Virus record (IMG/VR): IMGVR_UViG_3300042289_000054
Coordinates: 1-27,037 of that record
Reading direction: 5' to 3' (one strand)
DNA from: a virus
DNA: 27,037 bases
The notes below the pieces were generated by a model. It did no database searches and had not been told where the DNA came from. It saw only the letters and a list, made by a program, of their open reading frames with translations. Position numbers and translations under genes: made by a program. Position 1 is the first letter of the stretch. Each line of letters starts with the position of its first letter. Of the stretch, positions 1 through 27,037 are shown piece after piece.

Positions 1-411
1 GGCAGGAAGGTTCGGTAAAAAAAACGGGTTTGCGTTTTTGTCTTGCATAGTTATGCAATCGTTTGCATATATGCGTTTTGGGTTTGCGTTTACTGTTGGT
101 GCTGGTTCGTAAATGCTTTTGCGCTTTAAGTTTCCGTATCGTGCGCCGCGTGAACTGTTACAAGGTTTGCAGGCAGCCACTAAATTATCAAGACCGTTTA
201 CGCCTGGCGTCCCGTGTGGCCAGCGGTCTACTTCTATTAAGTGGTCTGCTGTTGTTGCTTGTCTACTGTTGCACCAATGGCATAGGGGTTTGTCCTTAAG
301 TAAGCGTTGCCGGTTTGTTTTAAATTCTGTTTTGCTTCTGGCTTCTGCGTTTAAGCTGCGTTTGTTTTGCTGGGCTGGGTTATGTGTTCTACGTTTCTTG
401 CCTTGTGTCAT
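1..411 (-). CDS. HNH-terminase large subunit fusion, N-terminal part (cut by window edge)
   Basis: The ATG at 411-409 opens a frame that runs off the left window edge after 137 codons. It encodes the same N terminus as the complete gene at 13608-15542: a basic start (MTQGKKRR), CHWC at residues 44-47, DH at 56-57, a DNL motif near 75 and CKPCNSSRG at 81-89, which together form an HNH endonuclease fold with a Cys4 zinc site. Differences from the complete gene are few (for example Q instead of L at residue 51, V instead of I at 107, D instead of N at 118). The fragment ends in the linker before the ATPase domain. The rest of this copy lies outside the window, so only the HNH part is visible here. 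Confidence 0.9.
   Translation of the reverse strand, partial: MTQGKKRRTHNPAQQNKRSLNAEARSKTEFKTNRQRLLKDKPLCHWCNSRQATTADHLIEVDRWPHGTPGVNGLDNLVAACKPCNSSRGARYGNLKRKSIYEPAPTVNANPKRIYANDCITMQDKNANPFFLPNLPA
25..91. other. Palindrome pair flanked by direct repeats inside the terminase linker (copy A)
   Basis: Two dyad-symmetric sites lie 6 bp apart: TTGCATAGTTATGCAA at 43-58 (7-bp arms, 2-bp spacer) and the perfect 10-bp palindrome GCATATATGC at 65-74. A 12-bp direct repeat GGGTTTGCGTTT flanks the pair at 25-36 and 80-91. All four elements recur unchanged in copy B. The element lies within the codons joining the HNH and ATPase domains. A cos, terminase-binding or operator function is possible but unproven. 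Confidence 0.5.
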
Positions 412-442
412 ATTCTCACGCGCCTACGGCTTGTGCTAGCGC

Positions 443-454
443 GCGCTTTCGCGC
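443..454 (-). other. Short GC hairpin with GAAA (GNRA) loop
   Basis: The minus strand reads GCGC-GAAA-GCGC, a 4-bp all-GC stem closed by a GNRA tetraloop, about 35 nt upstream of the terminase ATG. It is identical in copy B at 15574-15585. The structure is predicted from sequence only. Confidence 0.45.
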
Positions 455-490
455 TTGCTTTCGGTTTGTTATCGCTGGTCATTATGTCGG

Positions 491-534
491 GTTTATGTTT
501 GTGGTTTGTTTTGTTTATGTTATTGGTTTGTTTG
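491..534. repeat. Two tandem 22-bp direct repeats
   Basis: Units 491-512 and 513-534 match at 19 of 22 positions; each contains GTTTATGTT followed by TGGTTTGTTT. The 22-bp period is about two helical turns, which would put both units on one face of the DNA. The same repeats lie at 15622-15643 and 15644-15665 in copy B. Direct repeats of this kind commonly bind an initiator, regulator or terminase; which of these applies here is unknown. Confidence 0.6.
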
Positions 535-639
535 TCTGTGATTAAACCTAGTGCGCTAGCCCCCCGCTGCTTAGCCTCACGCAGCACCCTATTTCTTTAA
601 CCGTTAGCCAGGCCCTATATCACTACAGCGCCTTCTACC

Positions 640-651
640 CGCGTTACCGCG
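640..651 (-). other. Short GC hairpin with GTAA (GNRA) loop
   Basis: The minus strand reads CGCG-GTAA-CGCG, next to a second small dyad GCGTAATACGC. It is unchanged in copy B at 15771-15782. No T-run follows, so it is not a typical intrinsic terminator. Confidence 0.4.
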
Positions 652-700
652 TATTACGCCAACCGCGCCGCTACGCGCTTAGGCCTATTGTGAAACTTAT

Positions 701-1309
701 TTAATTGTCTTTAATTTCGGATAACTTTAGCGCGTCTATAACCTTCGATATATCGCTTTTAGTCAAATCGCCAGTTGTATTTATTTCGCGTTTTAAAACG
801 TTGCTGCAATACTCTTTAAGTTTGTCGCCTGTAATGCCTTGACCATTAGCTAAAGCCCGCATAAGCCCTAATTGCTTAGTGCTGGGCGCTGGCTGGTGCT
901 GAACTTCTGGAAACGGTACTTCTATATCGTGTAACGGTTTAACTGGCGCTAAATGTGTTTGCTGACGGCTTTGGGCTGCTTCGACTTCATCACGACTAGC
1001 AATAGCTTTATTAGCCGCAAAACCCGCATAAGCCAAAGCACGGCCCAGCGCCGACGAAAACCCAACTTCGTTTTCACTGAATTTTGTATAGGGGGTTCGG
1101 CCTGGGTACAGTTCGCAAGCTGAAGCTACAACTGGTATCGGGTCGTTAGCGTCCCGCCAAACTGTAACCGTACAGCGAATAAAACAGCTTTTATCTGGCA
1201 TTTCGATAACTTCACGCGCTGTTTCTTGTATGCGTAAATCTGGGTATTTTTCAAACGCTAAACGTAAACGGGTAGCAACGTCGACGTAATTATCTAAACT
1301 AAAGCCCAT
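701..1309 (-). CDS. Putative ssDNA-annealing/recombination protein
   Basis: A 202-aa protein. The central stretch with YPGRTPYTKFSENEV followed by SALGRALAYAGFAANK resembles the 'TSAIGRALA-AG' signature of many phage annealing-type (ERF/Rad52-like) proteins. After a proline-rich linker (about 120-142), the C-terminal part (TKQLGLMRALANGQG to ISKVIDALK) resembles a small domain often attached to phage DNA-metabolism proteins. Its ATG shares one base with the stop of the PD-(D/E)XK-like gene (TAATG), so the two are probably translationally coupled and may act as an exonuclease-annealase pair. The last codons (IKDN) are odd: they are read out of frame from the remnant of a 53-aa gene that is intact in copy B. 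Family assignment is from remembered motifs and is uncertain. Confidence 0.5.
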   Translation of the reverse strand: MGFSLDNYVDVATRLRLAFEKYPDLRIQETAREVIEMPDKSCFIRCTVTVWRDANDPIPVVASACELYPGRTPYTKFSENEVGFSSALGRALAYAGFAANKAIASRDEVEAAQSRQQTHLAPVKPLHDIEVPFPEVQHQPAPSTKQLGLMRALANGQGITGDKLKEYCSNVLKREINTTGDLTKSDISKVIDALKLSEIKDN

Positions 1310-1860
1310 TACGCCGCCTTTGCTGTTTGGTGCTTAATAAGTTCGTCAGTAGCTGGCAACATATCTATAGGCCATAACTGGTTTTGTGGCATAGCAAAAC
1401 ACGGATAACGCCAAGACGTTTGGTAATTGTCTTTTCTTTCGTTACAGCGTTTAAGTGTCGAAAAACCGCGTAGCGTCGCTTCTTGTGTCAGTTGGTCAAT
1501 AGTTACCAAAATGTATCGGCCTGGTTTGTCGCCATAATGTTTATCGTCTAGCGCGTGAGTAAGTAAACAGCCGTTTTCGTGGTATGTGGCCCGCACTTCG
1601 TAACCTAAAACGTCGTTAGACCTAAAACTATACGGTCGATAAACATTTACGTAATCAAAATAGTTAGCTACAGCCTGTTCACCTAAAAGCCCGCAAAATT
1701 TTATGGCTTCAGACAATAACGGGTTTGCGTCGTAAGTAGTTTTGGCTTTACGGTTCTCAACTTCTAACTGTATAAGGCCAGAAATTATTAAACAGTTTTT
1801 ATAATTGTCTTGCGTTAATTGAATAACTGGCTGGCCTAAATCGTTTAGTTTAGTTATCAC
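1309..1860 (-). CDS. PD-(D/E)XK nuclease-like protein
   Basis: A 183-aa protein. The core GLLGEQAVANYF (about 57-68), then ND (82-83), YEVR (87-90) and, after a DD pair, a hydrophobic YILVTID strand, follows the layout of small phage proteins of PD-(D/E)XK-like fold. Candidate catalytic residues are E61, D83, E88 and R90 in the Lys position. The start overlaps the preceding coiled-coil gene by 11 bp, and the stop overlaps the annealing-type gene by 1 bp. A role as exonuclease in recombination or concatemer formation is an inference; an inactive structural relative cannot be excluded. Only four residues differ from copy B (including N19D and A180E). Confidence 0.45.
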   Translation of the reverse strand: MITKLNDLGQPVIQLTQDNYKNCLIISGLIQLEVENRKAKTTYDANPLLSEAIKFCGLLGEQAVANYFDYVNVYRPYSFRSNDVLGYEVRATYHENGCLLTHALDDKHYGDKPGRYILVTIDQLTQEATLRGFSTLKRCNERKDNYQTSWRYPCFAMPQNQLWPIDMLPATDELIKHQTAKAA

Positions 1861-2239
1861 GAAATACCAAATTTTCTAAACGCTGTACTTCTGTTGCCTG
1901 GTGATTTAAACGGTCTTGTAATTCCCGTTCGCGTAATTCGCCCTCTTTTACTTTGGCGCGTAAATCTTTTATTACCGCTAACAAATATTGCAATTCGATT
2001 ATGACGCTTTTTAAATCTTGTACTAAGTCGCCGTCGTCAAAAACGTATTCGCTGCACCAGTTTTGCAAATTACGAATATTTTTATTTGTAACAAAATCGG
2101 TAGTTTTTGGCATAAACATTTCGCTAGGCCGCGCAGGGTCGACTAACGGGACTTTGTTATCTGTTATCTGGTTTATGACGTGCGCTAAAGCTTTTAGCTG
2201 TTCACGGTCTGCGTCAAATGGTTCGTTTGGGTTTGGCAT
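1850..2239 (-). CDS. Hypothetical protein with C-terminal coiled coil
   Basis: A 129-aa protein not recognised as a known family. The N-terminal half is polar with a proline-containing middle (VPLVDPARPSEMFMP). Residues about 75-125 are charged heptad-like helix (LKSVIIELQYLLAVIKDLRAK, then repeated R/E/L), a likely coiled coil. The ATG is preceded by an A/G-rich site (GAGAAAGG and ACGAGAAA). Only two substitutions separate it from copy B. It sits at the switch from the lysis genes to the DNA-metabolism genes; its role is unknown. Confidence 0.75.
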   Translation of the reverse strand: MPNPNEPFDADREQLKALAHVINQITDNKVPLVDPARPSEMFMPKTTDFVTNKNIRNLQNWCSEYVFDDGDLVQDLKSVIIELQYLLAVIKDLRAKVKEGELRERELQDRLNHQATEVQRLENLVFRDN

Positions 2240-2336
2240 TTTCTCGTAGCCTTTCTCGTTTGGTTATAAAGTACCATAGCGCAACCGTGTACGCAGTTAG
2301 AAGCAACGCGATAATAAAATGTTTTATAAAGACCAC
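2214..2336 (-). CDS. Small single-TM protein (40 aa, GTG start)
   Basis: This short frame bridges the gap between the lysozyme-like gene and the coiled-coil gene and overlaps both. It starts at GTG 2336, 13 bp inside the lysozyme-like gene, with GAAGG about 9 nt upstream. It encodes a hydrophobic segment (residues 3-24, HFIIALLLTAYTVALWYF) followed by a basic tail (TKRERLRENAKPKR). Copy B keeps the frame; of three changes two are silent in this frame and one gives L to S. One of the silent changes alters an amino acid in the overlapping coiled-coil gene. The position suggests an accessory lysis protein (second holin or antiholin-like), but this is unproven. Confidence 0.5.
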   Translation of the reverse strand: MVFIKHFIIALLLTAYTVALWYFITKRERLRENAKPKRTI

Positions 2337-2821
2337 GCCCGCCAGCCTTCGCTATAACGGTAAATGGCTAACGCTGCACGTAGGTTAGTTTCTAAGTCGA
2401 ATAGTTCGGCGCAGTCGTTTAAAATGCCGTGTGCTTGTAAATAGCCGCGTGGCCAATATTGGCTGGGTTTGCACCAAAAATAGTTTATTTGCATTACGCC
2501 CGCGCTACCCCCGTTAGGGTCTTTAGGGTTATATGCGTCTGTTTGGCAGCGGCTTTCACGGTAGGCGACAGCAACAACGGTTGAAAGTTCGTTAACAGGC
2601 CAGCCAATATGTTTAGCCATATTGAAAACCTGCCCGCAAAGGGTCTGCGCTGGGGCTGTAGTTGACGTAGAAGGCACGGTAACGGGCTGGCCGTATCCTT
2701 CGTAAACCGTGTCGTAGCGTGGCTGTAAATCGTCTGGCGTAGGTGCTGGGGGTTTGGTCAGCATAAACGCAGAAACAAACGCGATAAGCGCCGATATAGC
2801 GCCTTTAGTTAATAGGGTCAT
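2324..2821 (-). CDS. Membrane-anchored lysozyme-like/transglycosylase
   Basis: A 165-aa protein with a hydrophobic N-terminal segment (about 8-22) that could be a signal or signal-anchor, then a Pro/Thr-rich stalk (23-60) and a lysozyme-like domain. The putative catalytic Glu is E89 in YRESRC, followed by NGGSAGVMQIN (93-103 region) and a closing EGWRAWSL, as in small SLT/lysozyme-fold muralytic enzymes. Cysteines 62, 92, 107 and 127 could form two disulfides, which fits action outside the membrane. It may be a second endolysin or a wall-degrading accessory enzyme; placement right after the M15 peptidase supports lysis. Copy B differs at about nine residues. Confidence 0.75.
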   Translation of the reverse strand: MTLLTKGAISALIAFVSAFMLTKPPAPTPDDLQPRYDTVYEGYGQPVTVPSTSTTAPAQTLCGQVFNMAKHIGWPVNELSTVVAVAYRESRCQTDAYNPKDPNGGSAGVMQINYFWCKPSQYWPRGYLQAHGILNDCAELFDLETNLRAALAIYRYSEGWRAWSL

Positions 2822-2868
2822 TAGTTGCCTACTTTCTCGTTAGGGTTAAAACCAGCCTAACAAAACCC

Positions 2869-3342
2869 CTATACAGTTTTGGGCATATCCTTAAAAACGT
2901 CGTTAAACGCTTGTTTTACAAGGTTTTCATTAACAGACATAGCAGGCGAAATTTCTATGTGAAACCAATCGCCGCCCGACCATTTACCCTTTAGCCACGT
3001 ACCCCTATCGCATTTCCAGCTACGGTTTTCGGCATAGTCGATAACTAACTCTATTTGCAGCGTGTCGGCGTTTTCTAAAAGTTTGTAAATAAACGGTAAA
3101 GCTATTTTGCGTTTTTCAGCTATGCCTTTGTCGGTCATTTTTCTATAACTTAAATCAACTGCTAAACCGCGCGCGTGGTTAGATAGCTGGCCTGGTTTAG
3201 TTCGAATATCGCGCACTACCCAGCTACCGTTATTCCAAAGCGAATTGCCAGACCGTTTAACTACCTGGCGTATAAATTCGTCCATACCCTGCAACGGGCC
3301 TTTAGCTACTGGCGCTTTAAAAGCTGTATAGGGCCTAGTCAT
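2869..3342 (-). CDS. Endolysin, M15-family D-Ala-D-Ala or L-Ala-D-Glu type peptidase
   Basis: A 157-aa single-domain protein. SNHARGLAVD (54-63) gives Zn ligands H56 and D63, and DWFHIEI (125-131) gives the third ligand H128 in the HxE motif of peptidase M15 (VanY-like) enzymes, which cut peptide stems of peptidoglycan. There is no signal peptide, so export would depend on the holin-like protein whose gene overlaps by 8 bp. No cell-wall-binding domain is visible. The 47-bp gap downstream contains an A/G-rich ribosome site for the lysozyme-like gene. The exact bond cleaved cannot be told from sequence. Confidence 0.85.
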   Translation of the reverse strand: MTRPYTAFKAPVAKGPLQGMDEFIRQVVKRSGNSLWNNGSWVVRDIRTKPGQLSNHARGLAVDLSYRKMTDKGIAEKRKIALPFIYKLLENADTLQIELVIDYAENRSWKCDRGTWLKGKWSGGDWFHIEISPAMSVNENLVKQAFNDVFKDMPKTV

Positions 3343-3607
3343 TTTCGTCTAAATATTCGTTACGTTTACTTTTAATACCGTTTGAAGCAACCAGGCCCGA
3401 TAATGTGCCAGTTAAAAAAACTACAATAGTCGACATTAAATCTATAAACGCTGCGTCGTTTGGGCTTTGTTCTATTGGTTGGCTTACAAAAAGTAGGCCG
3501 TAGACCATACCTACGACAATGACGCTAAAAACTAAACCTAACAATATGCCTACGGTAACAATTAGGCGCGCGTGTAATTCGTCCGGGCTGTATCGGTAGC
3601 GTTTCAC
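3335..3607 (-). CDS. Holin-like two-TM protein (GTG start)
   Basis: A 90-aa protein with a short basic N terminus, TM1 about residues 15-41, a polar loop (QPIEQSPNDAAF), TM2 about 55-76 and a charged tail ending EYLDEND. This size and topology, directly upstream of an endolysin, fits a class II holin. I chose GTG at 3607 because it overlaps the lipoprotein stop as GTGA. The longer TTG start at 3640 would add 11 residues that carry two substitutions between copies, whereas the 90 residues after GTG are identical in both. Function is assigned from topology and context only. Confidence 0.7.
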   Translation of the reverse strand: MKRYRYSPDELHARLIVTVGILLGLVFSVIVVGMVYGLLFVSQPIEQSPNDAAFIDLMSTIVVFLTGTLSGLVASNGIKSKRNEYLDEND

Positions 3608-3759
3608 GGCGTTATCCCGCAACGGTCTGGTACGTTGCAATTATCTAAAACCATATTTTTGACTTTTGACTTAACCGTTAGTGTATTGTCGCGTGTGGTT
3701 TCGCAAGCGCTCAGCACAATTAACAATGCCAAACTAGCCAAATAGCGCGGCGGCTTCAT
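3604..3759 (-). CDS. Small lipoprotein (51 aa)
   Basis: The sequence starts MKPPRY, followed by a hydrophobic core and the lipobox LSAC (16-19), so C19 would be lipidated. The mature part would be 33 aa, polar, with C41 and C47. The gene overlaps the end of the 66-aa gene by 26 bp and the holin-like gene by 4 bp (GTGA). Copy B (18884-19039) has four substitutions, all silent in this frame, while some change residues in an extended holin frame; this strongly supports coding. Phage lipoproteins of this size can act in superinfection exclusion or lysis; neither can be shown here. Confidence 0.75.
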   Translation of the reverse strand: MKPPRYLASLALLIVLSACETTRDNTLTVKSKVKNMVLDNCNVPDRCGITP

Positions 3760-3934
3760 CTGCGGTTAATCCAAGTTTGTCAATAGCGTTTTGGCGCGCC
3801 GCAAGTTTTGCAGCTTGTGCTTCGGCTTCAATTTTGTTATCCGCTTCTAATTTTTTTGTAAACGCTAAATACGCTGTTTCTTCTTCTTCGGTCATTTCGC
3901 GATTTATACCGTCAACATTTATTTTTAATGTCAT
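3734..3934 (-). CDS. Hypothetical 66-aa protein downstream of tail genes
   Basis: Short, Ala/Glu/Lys-rich and mostly helical. It begins MTLKINVDG with a T-E-E-E motif and ends KLGLTADEAAALFG. Comparable short proteins often follow tail-fibre genes in phages, but I cannot name a family. It starts 3 bp after the stop of the distal tail protein gene, so it is very likely co-translated. Copy B differs at about nine residues, clustered in the middle and absent from both ends. Confidence 0.75.
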   Translation of the reverse strand: MTLKINVDGINREMTEEEETAYLAFTKKLEADNKIEAEAQAAKLAARQNAIDKLGLTADEAAALFG

Positions 3935-3937
3935 AAC

Positions 3938-4801
3938 TTATACCGTCTTTGAATATCCGTAAACCGAATATGTACCCGTTATTGTGCCTGTGCTGGTTAA
4001 CAAACTAAAACCGTCGTAAGAAACGGTTTGGTCGTGATAAGCCCAAGAAATAAAAATAGTTGTCGTATTGCTCGACCTTTGGTTATTTGACATAATCGGC
4101 GTTTTGGCTGCACTAAATGGTTGAAACAAATATGCTTGAATTGCGCTTGGTGCTGACGCGTTGCCTGCACCTAACAAATAATTATCGCGTTGGGTTTGAG
4201 TAACGGTTGATGAACCGCCTGACGCTTCAATAGTTTGTCTTTTATATGAATTGGCTGTCGAATTGTCTACGCCGCCAACACGCAAACGCAACTGAACATC
4301 TAACTCGGTTGACGCGTCAAAAATAATGTTTAACAGATAATTTGTGTAAGTTGAACTAAAAACATTATTCACATTTATAGTTGAAGCGGTTGTAAACGCT
4401 GTTTCGGCTTTGACACATACAAGACCGCTGGCGCTTGCTGTAACTGCTGACGGATAATAAATAGATACGCCCGCACTAGTAAAATAAAGTAAACCACCAC
4501 CATTTTGCGGAATAGCCAACGGCCCAGCGCTAGAAACCGTAGCCGTACCAGCCGTAACCGTACTCACGCCAGCACCAATGTTTTGCAAATAAACCGTATC
4601 GCCTGCATTAAATAAACTTGTATTGACCGTGATAGTTGTAGCGCTTGCGCTATTCATAACAACGCGTGTGCCTTTATCGGCTGCAACAAGTGTGTAACTA
4701 GCAGTCTTTGTGCTAACTGTTTGGTTGTAATCGTTCGCCTGCAAACTGTCCATTTGCGCAGCCGTCAAAACTTGGCCTGCTGTAAAATCTTGTATCGCCA
4801 T
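3938..4801 (-). CDS. Distal tail/fibre-type protein, module variant A
   Basis: A 287-aa Ser/Thr/Ala-rich, beta-type protein. It begins with FTAGQVLTAAQ, a motif common at the start of phage tail-tip or fibre proteins. Residues 1-125 are specific to this copy (repetitive T/V/A-rich strands); from GLVCVKAET (residue 126) to the end, 162 residues are nearly identical to copy B. It follows the hub protein gene by 14 bp carrying an AAGG-type ribosome site. Role in host attachment or tail-tip decoration is inferred from position and composition. No chaperone or lytic domain is visible. Confidence 0.6.
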   Translation of the reverse strand: MAIQDFTAGQVLTAAQMDSLQANDYNQTVSTKTASYTLVAADKGTRVVMNSASATTITVNTSLFNAGDTVYLQNIGAGVSTVTAGTATVSSAGPLAIPQNGGGLLYFTSAGVSIYYPSAVTASASGLVCVKAETAFTTASTINVNNVFSSTYTNYLLNIIFDASTELDVQLRLRVGGVDNSTANSYKRQTIEASGGSSTVTQTQRDNYLLGAGNASAPSAIQAYLFQPFSAAKTPIMSNNQRSSNTTTIFISWAYHDQTVSYDGFSLLTSTGTITGTYSVYGYSKTV

Positions 4802-4815
4802 AAGTACCTTTCAGA

Positions 4816-6105
4816 CTATCCCAAAACGTTTAGCGCGTCTAGTATCCCGTAAATAGCGTCGTCTAAAATCAGTTCGTAAACAATAGTTGTAGGCGCAGTA
4901 AAATATAAAACCTTATGGCCTGAACTTAGGTCTAAAACGTGTTCAATACCTTCTACGCTTAATTCTTGCGCTAGCTGCGTTGTGCCTGCGCCACTAACGA
5001 AAGTTTTTTCTATTACTATTGTGTCGCCTATATCGACTGCAGCCAGCGTGTCTTTTTGGGCTGTAGTCAGCATATTAAACGCCGTACCAACAGACGTATA
5101 GCGGGCTTCTGGTTCGCCGTCTAACAAATAATCGGCTAAAGCGGCGGCGGCTGTTGTGTTGTGTAAAAGGCTGTTAGTAATGCTTGTAGTTTGTATAAAA
5201 TATTTTGCTTGGCTGGCCAAGTCCTCTGCTGTTTGCGGGTTGTTACTACCTAAAATTTGTACTACAGCACGGTTAATAACCTGGTCAGCTTCAAAAGTTA
5301 TGCCTAAAGCGTTGTATTTAATGTTTGTGCCGTCGTCGTTAAAGTTTGCTACTGCGCTGCTAAGCGTTGCACCTATGCGCGGCTGAAACGTTAAAACGCC
5401 GTCCCGCGACATAAATAAGCGGCCCTGTTCGGCGTCGTTAATTTGGCTGCAATACGACAAAGCGTTAGTACCCTGCGCTACGGTAAATGCGGACGCGCCG
5501 CCTAAAGTTTGTGTACCTGTCGAAATATTGCGGGCCGCTGCTGGAAAATTGACTTCTGGTAAATCTAAAACGGTTTCTAAACGCACGTTTGTTAATTCTT
5601 CGCTAACGTTGTATTCGTTTAAAAACGTTTGGCTTAATAAATAAAAATCGTCTGCACAAAAAACGCTTACGGTATCTATACCGCCTAAAGCAAAATTATA
5701 ATTGTAATTAACGACGTAACCTTTAAAAAGGCATTCGGCTATGTTGCTATCGTCGTAGCGCACTAACTCAACTTGGCGCATAGGCGCTAAACCTGGCTGG
5801 GCTAATGCCGTATCAAAATAAGGCGAATTTTGGTCGAACGGGTTGAATATGCCGCTGGTATCGCTAAGCGTAAAAGACATAGTGCCAGCGCCGAACTGGT
5901 CGCCAATATCCTCACGGCCACGCTTAACCCGCACATTTACGCAACCGTCTAAAACTGGTGCAAAGTTAGTAGTACCGTCTAAAACGTACTGCGTATTATC
6001 TAAAACGCCTGCTGTAGCGTCGTCGAGTGTGAAACCGTCTTGAATAAAGCCCGTGTCTATAAACAGTTCGTAATTACCCGAACCGACTACCGCTACGCCA
6101 GCCAT
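4816..6105 (-). CDS. Minor tail protein (baseplate hub-like)
   Basis: A 429-aa protein directly after the tape measure gene, with the stop of one gene and start of the other sharing a base. The first 130 residues (FIDTGFIQDGFTLDD, then VKRGRE, SFTLSDTSGIFNPF, PMRQVELVRYD and FKGYV) resemble the N-terminal hub domain of minor tail proteins in actinophage-type siphoviruses. The remainder is beta-rich. A near-repeat of the N-terminal pattern (LFIDTGFIQDG) appears at the C terminus (ELILDDAIYGILDAL). It probably forms the tail-tip hub. Copy B differs at roughly 30 scattered residues. Confidence 0.75.
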   Translation of the reverse strand: MAGVAVVGSGNYELFIDTGFIQDGFTLDDATAGVLDNTQYVLDGTTNFAPVLDGCVNVRVKRGREDIGDQFGAGTMSFTLSDTSGIFNPFDQNSPYFDTALAQPGLAPMRQVELVRYDDSNIAECLFKGYVVNYNYNFALGGIDTVSVFCADDFYLLSQTFLNEYNVSEELTNVRLETVLDLPEVNFPAAARNISTGTQTLGGASAFTVAQGTNALSYCSQINDAEQGRLFMSRDGVLTFQPRIGATLSSAVANFNDDGTNIKYNALGITFEADQVINRAVVQILGSNNPQTAEDLASQAKYFIQTTSITNSLLHNTTAAAALADYLLDGEPEARYTSVGTAFNMLTTAQKDTLAAVDIGDTIVIEKTFVSGAGTTQLAQELSVEGIEHVLDLSSGHKVLYFTAPTTIVYELILDDAIYGILDALNVLG

Positions 6106-8132
6106 TACGCGATTTGCAACTGCAACGGGCCACTAAGACGGTTATAGGCCCGCAAAGCGTCGTTAATAGCTTCGCCTACTTCGCCTTTAGTAGCCAGCTG
6201 ACTATTTACGTTTATGGTTACGTTGCCTGAAGGCTGGCCTTTGTCTGTTGGTGCGCCTACCGGTATAACGCTAGGCATAGTCGGCGCTGTCATTGTCGGC
6301 GTTGTGCTAATCGCGTTATTAAACCCGCTGCTAATGCCTTTAACGTCAGCAAGGTTTATACCTTTTTTACCAAGCTTGGCTTGCGCTATTGCCATAGCCG
6401 CTTCAACGCCTGCTAAGTATTGTTGGGCGTTAGATACGCCAGCAGCATAAAATTTACTTGCTGACAAGTTGCCGATAGCTTCGGCTATTGCGTTTGTTTC
6501 TTCTACAAGTTTGTTAGCGCGTAAAACGTTTTCACCAGACTTTAAAAGTTCTTTGGCGATAGCTGCGCCGCTATCTATGCCCGCGTCGATTACCTGCTGT
6601 AGCGCTTCTTGCGATAGGCCCGTAGCTAATAGCTGTTCTACAAGGTTTGCAAACTCTTTAGCTTTATCGGCTTGTTTTTGTAGCGCACTAAAAAACGTGC
6701 TACCTGCGTCCTCGCCGCCTTCCTCAAAAGCTGCGCCAAAATCTAAAGCACCTTTAATTACGTCGCTAACTGATTGCGCAAAATTGTTGAATGCGTCTTG
6801 GGCTTTTTTAAGTCTGTCTTTAGCGGCGTCTAGCGCGTCGCCCATTTCTTTTTCTAAAGCTTTAGCGGCGTCTTTTACTGCCTGGCTTACTTTCTTTGCT
6901 GCGCCGCTTAAAGTTTTTTCGTCGTCGTCGTCGCCTGCCAGTTCGCTAGCAGTTTTTTTAGCTTTGTTACCAAAACTGTCTAACCGTTTTTCGGCGTCTA
7001 AAATTGTTTGGTTTTGGTTAAGTACTGCGCCTTGCAAAACGCTTACTTTGTAGGCGAAACTGTCGAAGCTTTTTTCTAGTGCGCCTATGTCTATGAAATC
7101 GTCAAAGACTTTAGACATAGTTTTTATAGCGTCTAACGGGTTGCCAGTTAAAAACTGGAATTGCGCTATAAGTACCTGAACTGATTTATAAACGACGTTT
7201 GCCATTTTTGCGGCGTTAACAGCAATAAATTTGAAAGCCTTTACTAAACCTTCACCAGCGCTACCAGTTTCGGCTACAGCCTGTTGAAGGCCTTTGCCTA
7301 AACCCTGTTCGCCAAACGCTGTTATAACCCTGTCGACTGCTGGCAGTACTTCGTCGTTTAAAAACTTTACTAACGTAGAAAAAACCGGTAACAGCAATTC
7401 GCCTATTTTGGTTTTCACGTTTTCAAATTGTGCGCTTAAAATACGTTGCTGGTTAGCTAGGCCGTCTGAAGTTCGCTCGAAGTCGCCTTGCGCGTCGCCT
7501 GTTTGTTCGTAGATTACTTTTTGTGCCGCTAAGATTTTTTGCTGCGCTGTTAATGCACCGCTACCGCTATATATGCCTAGTTCTAATGCAGCGGCTTTAA
7601 GTGTTGCGTCGTTAAGCAAAACGCCAAAACGCCTTAACGGTTCAGCTTCGCCGCGTAACGCAGCGCCAATAGCGTTAATGGCTTCGTCTGGCGTTGTGTT
7701 ATTGAAACTGGCCAGGTCAGCAGACAACGTAATAAAATCTGTTGTAAACGTCGCTAACTGGTCGCCCGCTAAACCAGCAGCTTTACCAAACGTGCCAAAC
7801 GTACCAGCAGCCGCTAAAACCTGGTTTTGACTTTGCCCGATTTCACGCGCAGCAGTTTTAGCAAAATCGGTTACAGCTTTGCCAGCGTCGCCAAAAATTA
7901 CTTTTATTTTGCTTGTGTTTTCTTGTAAATCGCTGGCCGCTTGAATAGCTGGCATTAGGCCCTTAGTGAATACAAGCACCGAACCAGCAGCCGCTATAAG
8001 GCCTGGCACTACCGAAGCTTTAAGTATGTCGCCTAATTTGCCAGCTGGCCCGGCAATACCTTTTAACGCCTGCTGGGCTTTGTTTAGCCCCGTGTCGTCA
8101 AATGTCGAAGTAATCGGTATGTTAATTGCCAT
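6105..8132 (-). CDS. Tape measure protein
   Basis: A 675-aa, Ala-rich helical protein that sets tail length and fills the tail tube. Visible features are a hydrophobic stretch about 41-58, a Gly/Ala-rich conserved region (IGAALRGEAEPLRRFG about 154-170), the tape-measure motif LANQQRILSAQFENVKTKIG (225-244) and coiled-coil helix at about 410-460. At about 1.5 angstrom per residue the tail would be near 100 nm. The start (ATG with GAAGG upstream) lies 11 bp inside the gp10-like gene. Between copies the first 380 residues are almost invariant, whereas about 381-430 differ strongly and by three residues in length. Confidence 0.95.
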   Translation of the reverse strand: MAINIPITSTFDDTGLNKAQQALKGIAGPAGKLGDILKASVVPGLIAAAGSVLVFTKGLMPAIQAASDLQENTSKIKVIFGDAGKAVTDFAKTAAREIGQSQNQVLAAAGTFGTFGKAAGLAGDQLATFTTDFITLSADLASFNNTTPDEAINAIGAALRGEAEPLRRFGVLLNDATLKAAALELGIYSGSGALTAQQKILAAQKVIYEQTGDAQGDFERTSDGLANQQRILSAQFENVKTKIGELLLPVFSTLVKFLNDEVLPAVDRVITAFGEQGLGKGLQQAVAETGSAGEGLVKAFKFIAVNAAKMANVVYKSVQVLIAQFQFLTGNPLDAIKTMSKVFDDFIDIGALEKSFDSFAYKVSVLQGAVLNQNQTILDAEKRLDSFGNKAKKTASELAGDDDDEKTLSGAAKKVSQAVKDAAKALEKEMGDALDAAKDRLKKAQDAFNNFAQSVSDVIKGALDFGAAFEEGGEDAGSTFFSALQKQADKAKEFANLVEQLLATGLSQEALQQVIDAGIDSGAAIAKELLKSGENVLRANKLVEETNAIAEAIGNLSASKFYAAGVSNAQQYLAGVEAAMAIAQAKLGKKGINLADVKGISSGFNNAISTTPTMTAPTMPSVIPVGAPTDKGQPSGNVTINVNSQLATKGEVGEAINDALRAYNRLSGPLQLQIA

Positions 8133-9108: not shown

Positions 9109-9163
9109 ATTTGCCTTTCGTAGGGCAGCGCCTTATTAGCGTTGCTTGTTTTTTTAGTTCTCA

Positions 9164-9177: not shown

Positions 9178-9181
9178 GCCA

Positions 9182-9616: not shown

Positions 9617-9622
9617 ATTAAG

Positions 9623-18101: not shown

Positions 18102-18148
18102 TAGTTGCCTACTTTCTCGTTAGGGTTAAAACCAGCCTAACAAAACCC

Positions 18149-19039: not shown

Positions 19040-19214
19040 CTGCGGTTAATCCAAGTTTGTCAAGTACGGCTTGACGCGCCGCAAGTTTTGCGGCTTGTGC
19101 TTCGGCTTCAATTTTGTTATCGGCTTTTAATTTTTTTGTAAACGCCAAATACGCTGCTTCCTCATCATCGGTCATATCACGGTTTACGCCGTCAACATTT
19201 ATTTTTAATGTCAT
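19014..19214 (-). CDS. Hypothetical 66-aa protein (copy B)
   Basis: A homologue of 3734-3934 with differences in the acidic patch (MTDDEEAA) and the RQAVLDKL segment; both termini are kept. It starts 3 bp after the distal tail gene. Confidence 0.75.
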   Translation of the reverse strand: MTLKINVDGVNRDMTDDEEAAYLAFTKKLKADNKIEAEAQAAKLAARQAVLDKLGLTADEAAALFG

Positions 19215-19217
19215 AAC

Positions 19218-19943: not shown

Positions 19944-19957
19944 AAGTACCTTTTAGA

Positions 19958-21247
19958 CTATCCTAAGACGTTTAACGCGTCTAGTATCCCGTAAATAGCG
20001 TCATCTAAAATCAGTTCGTAAACAATGGTTGTAGGCGCAGTAAAATATAAAACTTTATGGCCTGAACTTAGGTCTAAAACGTGTTCGATACCTTCTACGC
20101 TTAATTCTTGCGCCAGTTCGGTAGTGCCTACGCCGCTGGTAAAAGTCTTTTCTATGGTTATTGTTTGGCCTATGTCGACTGTCGCTAGCGTGTCTTTTTG
20201 GGCTGTAGTCAGCATATTAAACGACGTGCCAACAGACGTATAGCGGGCTTCTGGTTCGCCTTCTAACAGATAATCGGCTAGGTCAGCGGCTGCCGTGTCA
20301 TTGTGCAAAAGGCTGTTAGTAATGCTTGTAGTTTGTATAAAATATTTGGCTTGGCTTGCTAAGTCCTCTGCTGTTTGCGGGCTGTTGCTACCTAAAATTT
20401 GTACTACAGCCCTATTTATTACCTGGTCAGCTTCAAACGTTATACCTAAAGCATTGTATTTAATGTTTGTGCCGTCGTCGTGAAAGTCAGCAACCGAAGC
20501 GCTAAGCGTGTTACCTATGCGCGGCTGAAACGTTAAAACGCCGTCGCGCGACATAAATAGTCTGCCTTGTTCAGCGTCGTTAATTTGGCTGCAATACGAA
20601 AGCGCGTTAGTCCCCTGCGCTACGGTAAACGCGGACGCACCGCCTAAAGTCGCTACCCCTGTTGAAATGTCCCTAGCTGCTGCTGGAAAATTGACTTCTG
20701 GTAAATCTAAAACGTTTTCTAAACGTACGTTAGATAGTTCCTCGTCTACGTTGTATTCGTTTAAAAATGTTTGGCTTAATAAATAAAAATCGTCAGCGCA
20801 AAAAACGGTAACGGTATCTATACCGCCTAACGCAAAATTATAATTGTAATTTATAACGTAACCTTTGAAAAGATATTCGGCTGCGTTGGTGCTGTCGTAG
20901 CGCACTAATTCGACTTTACGCATAGGCGCTAAACCTGGTTGCTGTGTAGCTTCCGACCAATAGGGCGAAAGTTCATCGAACGGGTTGAATATGCCGCTGG
21001 TATCGGAAAGAGTAAAAGACATAGTGCCAGCGCCAAACTGGTCGCCTACGTCCTCACGGCCACGCTTTACCCGCACGTTTATGCAACCGTCTAAAACGGC
21101 TGCAAAGTTAGTAGTACCGTCTAAAACGTATTGCGTATTATCTAAAACGCCTGCTGTAGTGTCGTCGAGTGTAAAGCCGTCTTGAATAAAACCCGTGTCT
21201 ATAAACAGTTCGTAATTACCCGAACCAACTACCGCTACGCCAGCCAT
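19958..21247 (-). CDS. Minor tail protein, hub-like (copy B)
   Basis: A 429-aa protein of equal length to copy A. Replacements are scattered, with a dense patch around residues 92-102 (LSPYWSEATQQPG against NSPYFDTALAQPG) and near 365. C-terminal 50 residues unchanged. Confidence 0.75.
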   Translation of the reverse strand: MAGVAVVGSGNYELFIDTGFIQDGFTLDDTTAGVLDNTQYVLDGTTNFAAVLDGCINVRVKRGREDVGDQFGAGTMSFTLSDTSGIFNPFDELSPYWSEATQQPGLAPMRKVELVRYDSTNAAEYLFKGYVINYNYNFALGGIDTVTVFCADDFYLLSQTFLNEYNVDEELSNVRLENVLDLPEVNFPAAARDISTGVATLGGASAFTVAQGTNALSYCSQINDAEQGRLFMSRDGVLTFQPRIGNTLSASVADFHDDGTNIKYNALGITFEADQVINRAVVQILGSNSPQTAEDLASQAKYFIQTTSITNSLLHNDTAAADLADYLLEGEPEARYTSVGTSFNMLTTAQKDTLATVDIGQTITIEKTFTSGVGTTELAQELSVEGIEHVLDLSSGHKVLYFTAPTTIVYELILDDAIYGILDALNVLG

Positions 21248-23283
21248 TACGCTATTTGCAATTGCAGCGGGCCGCTTAGACGGTTATAGGCCCGCAAAGC
21301 GTCGTTAATAGCTTCGCCTACTTCGCCTTTAGTGGCCAGCTGGCTATTTACGTTTATGGTTACGTTGCCTAACGGTTGGCCTTTGTCTGTTGGTGCGCCA
21401 ACGGGTATAACGCTAGGCATAGTCGGCGCTGTCATTGTCGGCGTCGTGCTAATTGCGTTAGTAAATTCGCTGCTAATACCTTTTACGTCAGCAAGGTTTA
21501 TACCTTTTTTACCTAGCTTGGCTTGCGCTACAGCCATAGCAGCTTCGACGCCCGCTAAGTATTGTTGGGCGTTAGATACGCCAGCGGCGTAAAATTTGTT
21601 AGCCGACAAAATGCCTATTTGTTCAGCTATTTTGTTTGTTTCCTCTACAAGTTTGTTAGCGCGTAAAACATTTTCACCAGACTTTAAAAGTTCTTTGGCG
21701 ATAGCTGCGCCGCTATCTATGCCCGCGTTGATTACCTGCTGTAGCGCTTCTTGCGATAGGCCCGTAGCTAACAACTGTTCTACTAAATCGGCAAACTCTT
21801 TAGCTTTATCGGCTTGTTTTTGTAGCGCACTAAAAAACGTGCTGCCTGCGTCCTCGCCGCCTTCCTCGAAGGCTGCGCCGAAATCTAAAGCGCCTTTAAT
21901 TACGTCGGTAACTGAAGTAGCAAAATCATTAAAAGCGTCTTGGGCTTTTTTAAGTCTGTCTTTGGCTGCGTCTAACGCTTCGCCCATTTCTTTATTGAGT
22001 GCAGTTGCAGCGTTTTTAACGGCTTCAGTTACTTTGTTTACTGCGCCTTTGCCGCTACCTTTTTTGTTTTCGTCGCTTGCTAAACCGTCTAAGTCAGTTG
22101 TAACTTTTTTAATTACGTTGCCAAAACTATCTAAACGATTTTCGGCGTCTAAAATTGTTTGGTTCTGGCTTAAAACTGCGCCTTGTAAAACGCTTACTTT
22201 ATAGGCGAAACTGTCGAAGCTTTTTTCTATTGCGCCAATATCTATAAACGTGTCAAAGGCTTTAGCCATTGTTTTTATGGCGTCTAGCGGGTTACCTGTA
22301 ACGAACTGAAATTGGGCTATAAGTACCTGGACGGCTTTATATACAACGTTTGCCATACGTGCCGCGTTGACAGCAATAAATTTAAACGCTTTTACTAAAC
22401 CTTCGCCAGCGCTACCAGTTTCAGCTACAGCCTGTTGAAGGCCTTTGCCTAAACCCTGTTCGCCAAACGCTGTTATAACCCTGTCAACTGCTGGCAATAC
22501 TTCGTCGTTTAAAAATTTTACTAACGTAGAAAAAACAGGTAACAACAATTCGCCAATTTTTGTTTTTACGTTTTCGAATTGTGCGCTTAAAATACGTTGC
22601 TGGTTTGCTAGACCGTCTGAAGTTCGCGCGAAATCGCCTTGCGCGTCGCCTGTCTGTTCATAGATTACTTTTTGTGCCGCTAAAATTTTTTGCTGCGCTG
22701 TCAATGCACCGCTGCCGCTATATATGCCCAATTCCATAGCAGCGGCTTTTAACGTTGCGTCGTTTAACAAAACTCCAAAACGCCTTAACGGTTCAGCTTC
22801 ACCGCGTAACGCAGCGCCAATAGCGTTAATGGCTTCGTCTGGCGTAGTGTTATTAAAACTGGCTAGGTCAGCAGACAAAGAAATAAAATCGGTTGTAAAC
22901 GTCGCTAACTGGTCGCCTGCTAAACCTGCAGCTTTACCAAACGTGCCGAACGTGCCAGCAGCCGCTAAAACTTGGTTTTGACTTTGCCCGATTTCACGCG
23001 CAGCAGTTTTAGCAAAATCGGTTACAGCTTTGCCCGCGTCCCCAAAAATTACGCTTATTTTGCTTGTGTTTTCTTGTAAATCGCTGGCCGCTTGAATAGC
23101 TGGCATTAGGCCTTTAGTGAATACAAGCACCGAACCAGCAGCCGCTATAAGGCCTGGCACTACAGAAGCTTTAAGAATATTGCCTAATTTGCCAGCTGGC
23201 CCGCCAATACCTTTTAATGCTTGCTGCGCTTTGTTTAACCCTGTGTCGTCAAACGTTGAAGTAATCGGTATGTTAATTGCCAT
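21247..23283 (-). CDS. Tape measure protein (copy B)
   Basis: A 678-aa protein, three residues longer than copy A. The extra length is in the diverged linker about 390-415 (GLASDENKKGSGKG), just before the coiled-coil segment; the sequences before and after are nearly the same, so both phages should have tails of equal length. Confidence 0.95.
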   Translation of the reverse strand: MAINIPITSTFDDTGLNKAQQALKGIGGPAGKLGNILKASVVPGLIAAAGSVLVFTKGLMPAIQAASDLQENTSKISVIFGDAGKAVTDFAKTAAREIGQSQNQVLAAAGTFGTFGKAAGLAGDQLATFTTDFISLSADLASFNNTTPDEAINAIGAALRGEAEPLRRFGVLLNDATLKAAAMELGIYSGSGALTAQQKILAAQKVIYEQTGDAQGDFARTSDGLANQQRILSAQFENVKTKIGELLLPVFSTLVKFLNDEVLPAVDRVITAFGEQGLGKGLQQAVAETGSAGEGLVKAFKFIAVNAARMANVVYKAVQVLIAQFQFVTGNPLDAIKTMAKAFDTFIDIGAIEKSFDSFAYKVSVLQGAVLSQNQTILDAENRLDSFGNVIKKVTTDLDGLASDENKKGSGKGAVNKVTEAVKNAATALNKEMGEALDAAKDRLKKAQDAFNDFATSVTDVIKGALDFGAAFEEGGEDAGSTFFSALQKQADKAKEFADLVEQLLATGLSQEALQQVINAGIDSGAAIAKELLKSGENVLRANKLVEETNKIAEQIGILSANKFYAAGVSNAQQYLAGVEAAMAVAQAKLGKKGINLADVKGISSEFTNAISTTPTMTAPTMPSVIPVGAPTDKGQPLGNVTINVNSQLATKGEVGEAINDALRAYNRLSGPLQLQIA

Positions 23284-23869
23284 AGCGAACCTTCAACTTT
23301 TTATTTAGGGTTTTGGCTACTTCGTCGACAATTTGTTTAACCGCATATTGCACCGTGTCCCTATGCTGTTCTACTGCTGGGTCTATAGCGCGTGGCTGGT
23401 AACCGACTTCGACATTTAGATTATTAACAAAATTAGTATTTTTTGTTTTAATGCCTGCGTGGTCATATATTGCGCCTGCCGCGTCCGTTTGCTGCGCCAC
23501 CATAAGTTGATAAGGCCTAGCCTTAAAAGTTACGCTATGGCTTTCACGCGGGTTATTTTCAGCGTCAAATTTGTCTTTAAATTGAACCGTACCGCCTTTG
23601 CTGGCCCGTCTACCTACCTTAATTTTTAGGCCAGCTTTAGCCGTTTTGTTAGTCCAATAAACCTCGCGGCCTTTAATAAGTTTGCCGCGAACCATACCCG
23701 ATAAAGGCGGGACGTCGCCTATCAGTTGGCGGGCTGTAGCGATAATTGGCGCACCAGCGCCTTTAATATCTTTAGTTACTTGCCGTCTGTAAACCTTGTC
23801 GTATTTGTTTAGTTCAGCCAAAGTTTCTTTTATGCCTTCGATTTGTAAAACTAATTTTGGGTTAGACAT
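23273..23869 (-). CDS. HK97-gp10-like tail completion protein (copy B)
   Basis: A 198-aa protein with three replacements near residues 156-170 (S to Y, Q to E, E to D). The first 140 residues are identical and the 5' part lies in a block with no base differences at all. Confidence 0.65.
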   Translation of the reverse strand: MSNPKLVLQIEGIKETLAELNKYDKVYRRQVTKDIKGAGAPIIATARQLIGDVPPLSGMVRGKLIKGREVYWTNKTAKAGLKIKVGRRASKGGTVQFKDKFDAENNPRESHSVTFKARPYQLMVAQQTDAAGAIYDHAGIKTKNTNFVNNLNVEVGYQPRAIDPAVEQHRDTVQYAVKQIVDEVAKTLNKKLKVRYGN

Positions 23870-24259
23870 AAGTTTTATTCTGTTTGTTTAAAATTTCTAC
23901 GACGGTATACAAATCGTTTATACCAAACTCGATATGGCTAGGCCAGTAATGGCAAGTTACTAACACTTCAGCCATAAGATAACTTACTGTGCCTGGTCTG
24001 CTTTTAAATCGGCGGCCTGTTCAATTACTTCAATATTTACGAGGCTGTTGATAAATGCGTCTAGCGAACTGGGTACGGTTATTCCGTTTAGTCGGCTGGC
24101 TTCGTAGCACATATAGGCTAAATCCTCTACGCCTATGCCGTTAGCTATGTCTGAAGCTTTGCGCCTATATTTTCTTTCCCATAGAACTATGGTCATTAAG
24201 TTAGTTTGCACTTCGTAATTGTTGCCGTCTTTAAATACGGCTTTTAGTGTTAATTGCAT
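23862..24259 (-). CDS. Tail assembly chaperone G-T fusion via -1 frameshift (copy B)
   Basis: The same TTTAAAA heptamer at 24002-24008 and the same T frame ending at 23862. The T part is identical to copy A in both bases and residues. Confidence 0.8.
23984..24259 (-). CDS. Tail assembly chaperone, G product (copy B)
   Basis: A 91-aa zero-frame product, two replacements relative to copy A, both just upstream of the slippery site in the IEVIEQAADLK stretch. Confidence 0.85.
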   Translation of the reverse strand: MQLTLKAVFKDGNNYEVQTNLMTIVLWERKYRRKASDIANGIGVEDLAYMCYEASRLNGITVPSSLDAFINSLVNIEVIEQAADLKADQAQ

Positions 24260-24314
24260 ATTTGCCTTTCGTAGGGCAGCGCCTTATTAGCGTTGCTTGT
24301 TTTTTTAATTCTCA

Positions 24315-24328
24315 GCGGCCAAAGCCGC
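24315..24328 (-). other. Hairpin after the major tail protein gene (copy B)
   Basis: The same 5-bp GCGGC/GCCGC stem as at 9164-9177, in a gap that otherwise shows only one base change. Confidence 0.4.
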
Positions 24329-24332
24329 GCCA

Positions 24333-24764
24333 TTATGAAACGGCTTTAGTTAGTGTGCCGCCAGTAAACGTAAGCGTAATGGTCGACAGTTCACCAAGAC
24401 TTGCGTTAATTGGCGTGTGGCTTTCCAAATAGCACCCGACTAGGCTGAATTTCGGCGAAGTGGCACTAGGTGTTACAAGACCTGCAGCCGTTGGCGAAAC
24501 CGTAATAGTTGTTTGAATACCGACCAAACCATAAATAGTTGCTTCGGTTTCTGTCGCTGCGTAACTCTGATAAAGCGTTACTTCGAAGCTGTTGTTTTGC
24601 AACGAAGTTACAGCAGCACCGCCAAACTTGCGGGCCGTATCGCCAAACGACGTAGTTTCAAGCTGTTCGTAATTGTATGTCAATACTGCGCTAGTCGCTT
24701 GGTCTGTTAAGTCAACGCTGTTTATGGTTAGTGCGGGTGAACTTAAATAAACTGAAGTTGCCAT
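24333..24764 (-). CDS. Major tail protein (copy B)
   Basis: A 143-aa protein, one residue shorter than copy A at the NCT/QT position of the central loop. It is clearly more diverged than its neighbours in the middle (FGGAAVTSL, LVGCYLESH), whereas the first 15 and the last 30 residues are almost the same. Confidence 0.8.
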   Translation of the reverse strand: MATSVYLSSPALTINSVDLTDQATSAVLTYNYEQLETTSFGDTARKFGGAAVTSLQNNSFEVTLYQSYAATETEATIYGLVGIQTTITVSPTAAGLVTPSATSPKFSLVGCYLESHTPINASLGELSTITLTFTGGTLTKAVS

Positions 24765-24770
24765 ATTTGG

Positions 24771-24947
24771 TTAGTCCTTGTCTGTATCTGTATCTTTAGT
24801 TTTACCAGATTTTTTAGCGCTTTGCGTGGATAGGTGGCCGCCTTCTACAAGCGCTTCGACGTCTACGCCTTCTAAATCTTTGTCAGTAACAGTATCGCCG
24901 CGTTTAAAACCTGCGAACCTGTCCGAAGTAACCATATAGCTAGTCAT
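24771..24947 (-). CDS. Small 58-aa protein between tail terminator and tail tube genes (copy B)
   Basis: Same length as the copy A protein with replacements I16R, N29D, D35E and a few in the tail; the ribosome site AAGGA is kept. The equal length with mixed silent and conservative changes supports coding. Confidence 0.8.
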   Translation of the reverse strand: MTSYMVTSDRFAGFKRGDTVTDKDLEGVDVEALVEGGHLSTQSAKKSGKTKDTDTDKD

Positions 24948-24957
24948 TTGTTTATCC

Positions 24958-25320
24958 TTACGCTGTCTGGGCTTGCATTGTTATAGTCAAATCATACGCA
25001 GGGTAAGCCACGCCGCCTACTAAAGCTTCTGTAGGCCTACCGTCCGTAACGCCTACATTAGCACCCAGCACCAGCGAAGCAAGGTTAAGTAAACTGCGCT
25101 GCGCGTCTAGGTTGCCTGGCCCTAAAGTTATGACCCGCACGGGAAACGACATTTTTACTATGTTGGCGTTAAACGCTTCGAAGCTTGGCGCGTCAATAAA
25201 AGCGCAAGGCGGGACAAGGTTACGCGGGTCGTTCACTACCTGTAACCCTGTAACGGCTGAAAGTGTCGTAGTTAAATTTGTTAGCGACGTATTAAACAAG
25301 TCGGTAAAGTTTTGGGGCAT
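24958..25320 (-). CDS. Tail terminator-like protein (copy B)
   Basis: 120 aa, identical in protein sequence to copy A; the base differences are all silent. Confidence 0.65.
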   Translation of the reverse strand: MPQNFTDLFNTSLTNLTTTLSAVTGLQVVNDPRNLVPPCAFIDAPSFEAFNANIVKMSFPVRVITLGPGNLDAQRSLLNLASLVLGANVGVTDGRPTEALVGGVAYPAYDLTITMQAQTA

Positions 25321-25952
25321 TACGCAACCGCTGGCCTATCGACGCCTAACAGCTGTTTAATCATTGGCGACAAACCAAAACTATTAGCTGTACCTAAACC
25401 GTCAAATGACGCAAAATCTTGTACGCCGCCGCGTTGACGATATAGCGCGCCGCCATACATAATCGTTCCTAAACTAACTGCCCCATTTGGCACGGTAGTT
25501 AAGCTTTCGTTTTTGTAGCCTGCTTCGCGCCTTCTGGCGTAACAAAAATTGTTTGCAGCTGCCGCGCATTGTGTTAAAAATGCTGTATCGGCTGCCGTCG
25601 CTGTACCGATACCTAACCAGTCCTCTATTTGGCCTGCAGTTATCCACGTGCATACAGGCGTTGTAGTTAGTGTGCCTGTTGCTGCAACTATGGTTACGTT
25701 GTCTGCTGTTTTTGCGTATAGAACCTGGTTAAGTATTGGCGTTTCTATGTCGTAGATAAAAAAGCCTTGTTCGTCTACGCCAGTAAAATAATATTCGGGT
25801 AACGCAGCGACGGTATAAGTACCGTTAAAGGTTGCGTCGACGCCAGCGATAGTTACGCTTTGCCCTACTTCTAACGGGTCGGCGTTAGTAACAAGTATGA
25901 CTACTGCGTAGTTATCGGTTAAATATTTTTGTTTGACCGAATAGACGGCCAT
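25320..25952 (-). CDS. Head-tail connector with N-terminal beta domain (copy B)
   Basis: 210 aa. About 14 replacements, all within the first 130 residues (for example the FTGVDEQGFFIYDIETPIL stretch); the portal-facing helical C-terminal part is unchanged. Confidence 0.7.
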   Translation of the reverse strand: MAVYSVKQKYLTDNYAVVILVTNADPLEVGQSVTIAGVDATFNGTYTVAALPEYYFTGVDEQGFFIYDIETPILNQVLYAKTADNVTIVAATGTLTTTPVCTWITAGQIEDWLGIGTATAADTAFLTQCAAAANNFCYARRREAGYKNESLTTVPNGAVSLGTIMYGGALYRQRGGVQDFASFDGLGTANSFGLSPMIKQLLGVDRPAVA

Positions 25953-25973
25953 AGCTGGCCTTCTTTCTAGTCG

Positions 25974-27037
25974 TTAAACGAACTTAACGAACTTGGTAGC
26001 GTCTGCCATAAACGAAGCTGCATAACCTCTGAAGGCAATAGTGCGGCCAAGTGTGGCTGGTACGTCTACTGAAATTGCGCCTTTTTGCTGTTCGTAGAAC
26101 TCGAAGCCTGCGGCTGGGCCTGCTGCGTGGCCCATAAATGAACCTGGCGCGTTTTTGTCTACGACAAGTACAAGGCCTAGCGGGTTACCGTTCCAGCTTG
26201 TAGCTGACGAATTACCGGCAGCGTTTTGACCCATAAGATTAGGCGCACCTACAAACGGAAATGTAGGTCTATTTTGGTCGTCCGTGCTGGACGCAAGTGC
26301 CGCCCAACTCGCGGGCGTTACAACCATATGAGTAGGTAGGTAATTTGAACTTGCGCTAATTTGTCGTGCGCCATCATAAATTGCGGCTACCCAATCAGCG
26401 CCTACGGCTGTATCTGCAACTGTTGCGGTTTGTGAAATTGCAGCGTGGCAAGTATCAACAGCGTAATTATCAGTTGCTTGTCCATAAGCGATAGCTAACT
26501 GGTTAAGGATTATGTCAATCGAATTTGGGTCTGACCAGTCCAAGTCCTGTTCGCTGACTGTCACGTATGTACCGAAACTTAGTTTGGAAATATCCGTGTT
26601 GGACACTTGAACAGTTGACGCGGTAAGCGTGTCAAATTGGTCGGCTTGTTGTGCAACTGTTGGCCGTGTTGTAATTTTTGGTCGGCGAAATGTTGCGCCC
26701 GCTGTCGGCATAGCACGAGTACCGATAGCGCTAACAAATGGTCTAATTGGGTTAAGCGAATCGTAGACGCTGCCAACGATAATTTCGGGCAAAATGCCTG
26801 GCGTCGAATCAGTATTAATGAAAGGCGCTGCACCTGGCGCAGCTTCAATACGTGCCGCGTTAATGTTTGCGTTAAGTTGTGCGAAATCTGAACCGCCGCG
26901 TACATACGCTGCGATATATTCCGAAGTCGAAGGCAAACGAAGTTTTTTAGGTTGCGCGTAAACAGTGTGTACGGCTGCAGCTTCGATTACTTGCGGGGTT
27001 TCTACTGGTTCGTTCATTTTTGTTACCTCTTGTTCTG
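25974..27037 (-). CDS. Prohead protease-major capsid protein fusion, C-terminal part (cut by window edge)
   Basis: The frame stays open through the internal ATG at 27017 to the window edge and the codons beyond it (EQEVTK) match the fusion in copy A, so this is the capsid part of the same fusion. The 347 capsid residues differ at scattered sites, densest around 210-245 of the capsid part (loops with SSTDDQNRPTFPFVG). The internal Shine-Dalgarno AGAGGT is kept. Confidence 0.9.
   Translation of the reverse strand, partial: EQEVTKMNEPVETPQVIEAAAVHTVYAQPKKLRLPSTSEYIAAYVRGGSDFAQLNANINAARIEAAPGAAPFINTDSTPGILPEIIVGSVYDSLNPIRPFVSAIGTRAMPTAGATFRRPKITTRPTVAQQADQFDTLTASTVQVSNTDISKLSFGTYVTVSEQDLDWSDPNSIDIILNQLAIAYGQATDNYAVDTCHAAISQTATVADTAVGADWVAAIYDGARQISASSNYLPTHMVVTPASWAALASSTDDQNRPTFPFVGAPNLMGQNAAGNSSATSWNGNPLGLVLVVDKNAPGSFMGHAAGPAAGFEFYEQQKGAISVDVPATLGRTIAFRGYAASFMADATKFVKFV

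Follow-up and report, generated by a model that had tools for sequence, protein, structure and literature searches.

The closest described counterparts of the phage analysed here are found in two groups. Decurrovirus genomes (Arthrobacter cluster AN, e.g. Elkhorn, MF140409, 15,556 bp) are ordered into terminase, portal, fused capsid-protease, tail, tape measure, and lysis genes, with an HNH gene at the right end. This HNH gene has its own stop codon before the genome end, and the terminase, a gene of its own, comes after three small genes. Paopuvirus of the Orlajensenviridae (Microbacterium phages, e.g. Quaker, NC_052939, 17,450 bp) shows the same gene order and the fused capsid-protease; its HNH gene, also with its own stop codon, is located ~100 nt from the right end, and the separate terminase gene is set apart from the left end by gp1 and gp2. 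Phage HK97 encodes HNH and TerL as separate proteins, and the packaging site cos lies outside any joint reading frame. The HK97 HNH protein, gp74, promotes cleavage of cos by TerL (PMC9410871). Phages of freshwater actinobacteria have been reported from 13 kb upwards (PMC6802176).

The viral contig IMGVR_UViG_3300042289_000054 (27,037 bp, record class 'linear'), analysed over its whole length and called the window below, is composed of units that share their size with Decurrovirus genomes and their gene order, fused capsid-protease, and right-end HNH with both groups. A close sequence relationship was not found: the Decurrovirus terminase is only ~25% identical to that of the window, the endolysin types differ, the Quaker-type HNH is ~38% identical over 76 aa, and megablast of the window against phage records yielded no match. 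Gene order and cell-wall enzymes resemble those of phages of Actinobacteria, which may point to an actinobacterial host.

Two diverged copies of one siphophage genome

Self-BLAST resolves the window into two collinear units, A and B (Table 1), which are ~90% identical copies of one 15.1-kb siphophage genome with intact reading frames. A preliminary description of this DNA had recognized two different strains of a ~15-kb phage in one contig, and these collinear units bear this out. Unit B is incomplete, comprising 11.9 of about 15.1 kb, and positions 11890-15131 of A have no counterpart in it. The genes of both units are all encoded on the minus strand. Read in this direction, terminase, portal, fused capsid-protease, head-tail and tail genes, tape measure, and tail proteins are followed by a holin-like membrane protein, two cell-wall enzymes (M15-like and SLT), small proteins, and an HNH domain; one small protein is RecT-like, with the names RecT and holin being tentative. 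In the window, no tRNA was found, no TerS was identified, and neither a host flank nor an attachment site was seen. An integrase, likewise not seen in the preliminary description, did not turn up among the window proteins searched.

Table 1. Features of the window, with positions counted from its first base.
Feature	Position	Strand	Evidence or remark
Unit A, strain A, complete from cos to cos	1-15131	-	double-stranded 1-15126 plus CCCGA
Unit B, partial genome of strain B, from cos to a break inside the capsid gene	15132-27037	-	exact contigs of sample 3300035666
HNH half (137 aa) of the strain A HNH-TerL gene	1-411	-	runs off at base 1; L083 starts there too
Tail protein with strain-specific N-terminus	A 3938-4801; B 19218-19943	-	alignment break 4426-4799 / 19706-19941
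Tape measure protein	A 6105-8132; B 21247-23283	-	phrog_1535, E 4.8e-22 (strain A)
Capsid protein with N-terminal protease, strain A	10826-12403	-	phrog_2263, E 1.6e-77; Peptidase_S78
Portal protein	12396-13508	-	PF04860, E 1.9e-22; unit A only
HNH-TerL ORF over cos, 644 aa	13608-15542	-	HNH, TerL_ATPase, and TerL_nuclease matches
Stretch of 112 bp identical in strain A and the B-type junction, containing cos	15079-15190		comparison with L003; A/B alignment
cos core CCCGA	15127-15131	-	missing from contigs that stop there, present in crossing contigs
53-aa ORF present in B, none in A	15829-15990	-	near-identical in L197
Capsid gene of strain B, truncated at the contig end	25974-27037	-	continued by L114

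In the self-BLAST alignment, identity amounts to 94.2% between 1-717 and 15132-15849, 93.7% between 722-4426 and 16002-19706, and 89.6% between 4799-11889 and 19941-27037. A circular wrap-around of a single genome is ruled out by the ~10% difference between the copies. Compared gene by gene, A and B differ mainly by silent changes, with dN/dS below 0.3 in every gene and a median dS of ~0.3 (range 0.10-0.83). Both units are hence functional, diverged strains and not error copies, and the intact frames and many silent changes described earlier for the second unit were confirmed. The same applies to its swapped tail module, where the tail proteins of A (287 aa) and B (241 aa) have unlike N-termini, and to its one additional gene, the 53-aa ORF. 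The spread of dS resembles that of mosaic, recombining strains. A segment of 296 bp (8573-8868 and 23724-24019) is the same in A and B, next to genes with dS up to 0.8, and may be a sign of recent inter-strain recombination.

Physical genome ends at cos

The ORF over the join, used as query, retrieved 80 loci, many of which begin at one and the same query residue. Contigs of the window's clade either start at 15126 (terminase side) or end at 15132, the counterpart of base 1 (HNH side), and the same cos-flanking bases are shared by 17 contig starts and 15 contig ends. Among the 135 distinct terminase-bearing contigs included in a count of start positions, the starts cluster per clade, 30 of them 235 nt and 14 of them 310 nt upstream of Walker A. 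Independent contigs stop at identical nucleotides per clade, i.e. the genomes have the fixed, unique ends that define cos phages. An adapter remnant and an extra base are direct marks of such physical DNA ends: L022 begins with TCCGATCT (1-8), the 3' end of an Illumina adapter, with the phage end following directly, and L084 and L087 carry one extra A as last base, as A-tailing would leave.

The bases CCCGA are missing between 15126 and 15132 in the cos-to-cos contigs L173, L184, and L188 and present in L003-L008; in the spanning contigs read from the window's clade, CCCGAC is invariant. End repair trims 3' overhangs, after which assemblies stop at cos, and circular forms yield reads over cos (PMC5557969). 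Given the fixed ends, the absence of CCCGA from both blunt ends, and this trimming, phages of the window type are best read as 3'-cos phages, with CCCGA as the putative 5-nt 3' overhang. Base 1 of the window is one such physical end. In the L151 clade (e.g. L144 and L238, start AGCT; L234, start GGCTTCG), the missing stretch appears to comprise six bases, CCCGCA, a gap defined by one HNH-side end only. L024 represents a contig closed on itself, with an exact 127-bp end repeat.

The genome ends also bear on two causes listed by the preliminary description, packaging of more than one genome length and tandem prophages. That either applies is very improbable, the sole point in favor being the presence of two units in one contig. 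Near-complete relatives mostly measure 14.7-15.9 kb, and packaging beyond one genome length fits poorly because many of them end exactly at cos. Tandem prophages were rejected, as the window has no host flank and the terminase has no relative in genome_contigs, a one-per-species collection of prokaryote genomes.

The HNH-TerL reading frame across cos

In the ORF over cos, an HNH domain (aa 44-90) is joined to the ATPase and nuclease domains of TerL. HNH and terminase share a single open frame through cos in 40 distinct ORFs, with no true exception; the apparently out-of-frame arrangement in L063 was rejected, its HNH match being false. The frame is always kept over 11 different HNH-TerL spacings, which indicates many frame-preserving indels. 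When the ends of five cos-to-cos units (A, L173, L184, L188, and L223) are joined, the frame is restored only by gaps of 2 modulo 3, a rule with which the five missing bases of CCCGA comply. At cos itself, the codons CCC GAC (Pro138-Asp139) show no variation among 16 crossing ORFs, while the linker around them differs in length.

The L151 clade bears on the site of translation initiation. In 27 distinct sequences of this clade, the first 44 codons after cos contain no ATG, GTG, or TTG, yet purifying selection acts on these codons (pN/pS 0.17), among which is a conserved PRLET motif. Judged from these sequences, the start of translation must lie past cos, within the HNH part, barring the use of a rare start codon. 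An internal start of the terminase at M146, yielding the sole product, is not general, as the ATG is absent in L027, L029, and L030. Ribosome-binding sites are uninformative in the window genome, and an AlphaFold2 model of the HNH-TerL fusion reached a pLDDT of 37, too low for use.

On balance, we favor the view that in this large family of uncultivated ~15-kb phages cos is situated inside the HNH-TerL gene, with its halves at opposite ends of the virion DNA, so that the enzyme would depend on circularisation and hybrid terminases could arise in mixed infections from the joined ends of two strains. If true, the whole terminase gene exists only in joined DNA, and synthesis of the packaging enzyme would wait for circularisation, a simple possible means of tying packaging to it. 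The ORF over the join in the window, with a terminase half from strain A and an HNH half from strain B, is a strain hybrid of the gene that is split by cos in this phage family. No relevant description of a gene spanning cos was found in the open-licence papers searched, which is weak evidence of novelty.

Origin of the 27-kb contig

Both strains are encountered separately in other samples. L106 (sample 3300037508) equals 3164-15126 of the window at 100% and stops at 15126, L083 (sample 3300042364) begins at base 1 and equals 1-8525 apart from one mismatch, and the two jointly span A from end to end. Exact matches to B come from sample 3300035666, namely L003 (15079-19262), L172 (19136-23718), and L114 (24921-27037); the overlap of L003 and L172 by 127 bp points to a final k of 127 in the assembly of this sample. 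L003 crosses cos and is exact on the HNH side, and its terminase left of 15079 differs from that of A at 68 sites. L114 runs 2,667 bp beyond the right end of the window, with 151 differences from A there, and leads from the capsid gene of strain B on into a portal-terminase region of its own. The terminases of L003 and L114 differ at 45 of 1,033 sites, which indicates several strains in sample 3300035666 and leaves the true terminase of B ambiguous. That the HNH end of B is elsewhere joined to a terminase other than that of A is settled by these alignments.

A and B meet at 15131/15132, exactly at cos. L003 follows the window to the right of 15078 and departs from it at that base and further left, and the first difference between A and B is at base 60/15191. 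Provided that the bounds of A are those seen in L083 and L106, these comparisons settle that the change of strain falls within the shared 112-bp stretch; sites 15078 and 15191, which tell the strains apart, span 114 bp when both are counted. With A and B identical over this stretch, an assembler or the ligation of cohesive ends can easily swap partners. Among the causes that the preliminary description had proposed, an assembly join in a region common to both strains, with the terminase gene as its example, has the best support, since the join lies inside the HNH-terminase ORF.

We consider it likely that two co-occurring strains of a small cos-type siphophage were fused at cos into a chimeric contig. 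The virion DNA would be linear with short 3' cohesive ends, which would be ligated in infected cells and give rise to some reads over cos. As cos and its flanks are near-identical among strains, the assembler may then have paired the right end of B with the left end of A, and no replicating or packaged molecule of 27 kb would be needed. The pile-ups of contig ends, the separate occurrence of A and B, the second copies in other long contigs, and a foreign tail in L202 speak for such a chimera. Other findings count against it. The right end of the window shows no 127-mer in common with A; the exact run there measures 52 nt, which rules out a simple graph branch at k = 127 at this position. In addition, a final k of 127, as in sample 3300035666, would exceed the 112-bp bridge, unless sequences were carried over from smaller k or hybrid reads existed.

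Hybrid reads, from DNA never joined inside a cell, would be formed if, as a less likely variant, cohesive ends of different virions annealed after extraction or during library making and were sealed at adapter ligation. The CCCGAC core is common to all strains of the clade, so any left and right ends could pair; however, five bases make a weak overhang, and end repair takes off 3' overhangs first (PMC5557969), which renders this artefact improbable.

All five family contigs met that exceed one unit carry a diverged second copy, i.e. the window, G030 (L301+L302; 22.8 kb, 90.7% identity), L233 (18.5 kb, 89.4%), L234 (18.0 kb, 89.3%), and G031 (L303; 16.4 kb, 94.8%). L234 is laid out like the window: a full unit from cos to cos is followed by a 2.2-kb second copy at 89%, from another strain. 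In G030, 1,759 bp are repeated identically, each time preceded by a different version of the adjacent region; an assembler tracing both branches of a bubble in a circular graph would leave such a pattern. The terminase end of L202 (1-49) carries an HNH tail unlike the contig's own HNH end (last 45 bases), and this contig appears to be another hybrid at cos. In the terminase contig L063 (1-700), the upstream sequence is unrelated to HNH, possibly owing to another chimeric join.

Among the long contigs, those with a located cos (the window, G030, L233, and L234) have one interior cos each, a finding that would also be expected of real dimers and thus counts against the chimera. It leads to the main rival, a possible mixed concatemer, formed when two strains meet in one cell and their cohesive ends are ligated or a single replicating concatemer is shared. 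Such a molecule would look the same: ligation of two linear genomes would place the join at cos, where CCCGA is indeed present and the flanks are identical between the strains. However, a single circle would yield identical copies, which should predominate, the A-specific 121-mer over the junction (15070-15190) occurs in no other IMG/VR contig, and a minority molecule would have to win the assembly. As identical tandem units collapse in assembly, only diverged tandems are visible, an ascertainment effect. The mixed concatemer is less economical than a chimeric join and is regarded as unlikely, if less so than the library artefact.

The 27-kb contig is thus probably not a real entity and ought not to enter counts as a single genome; it identifies cos as a point at which assemblies of this phage family switch from one strain genome to another. 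The underlying anatomy, a conserved frame running through the packaging cut, matters more than the contig itself. In assembly graphs of strain-rich phages, bubbles and segments held in common cause strain genomes to be fused or broken (PMC10563150). Compared with the chimeric contigs known from such graphs, the fusion point here is the packaging site, placed within 112 bp. Unlike Decurrovirus and Paopuvirus, where HNH and terminase are separate genes, the present family holds both in one frame over cos. In HK97-type packaging, an HNH protein acts with TerL at cos; here, the ORF predicts that HNH and TerL form one polypeptide, which, if true, would be a fusion of two proteins that stand separate in HK97.
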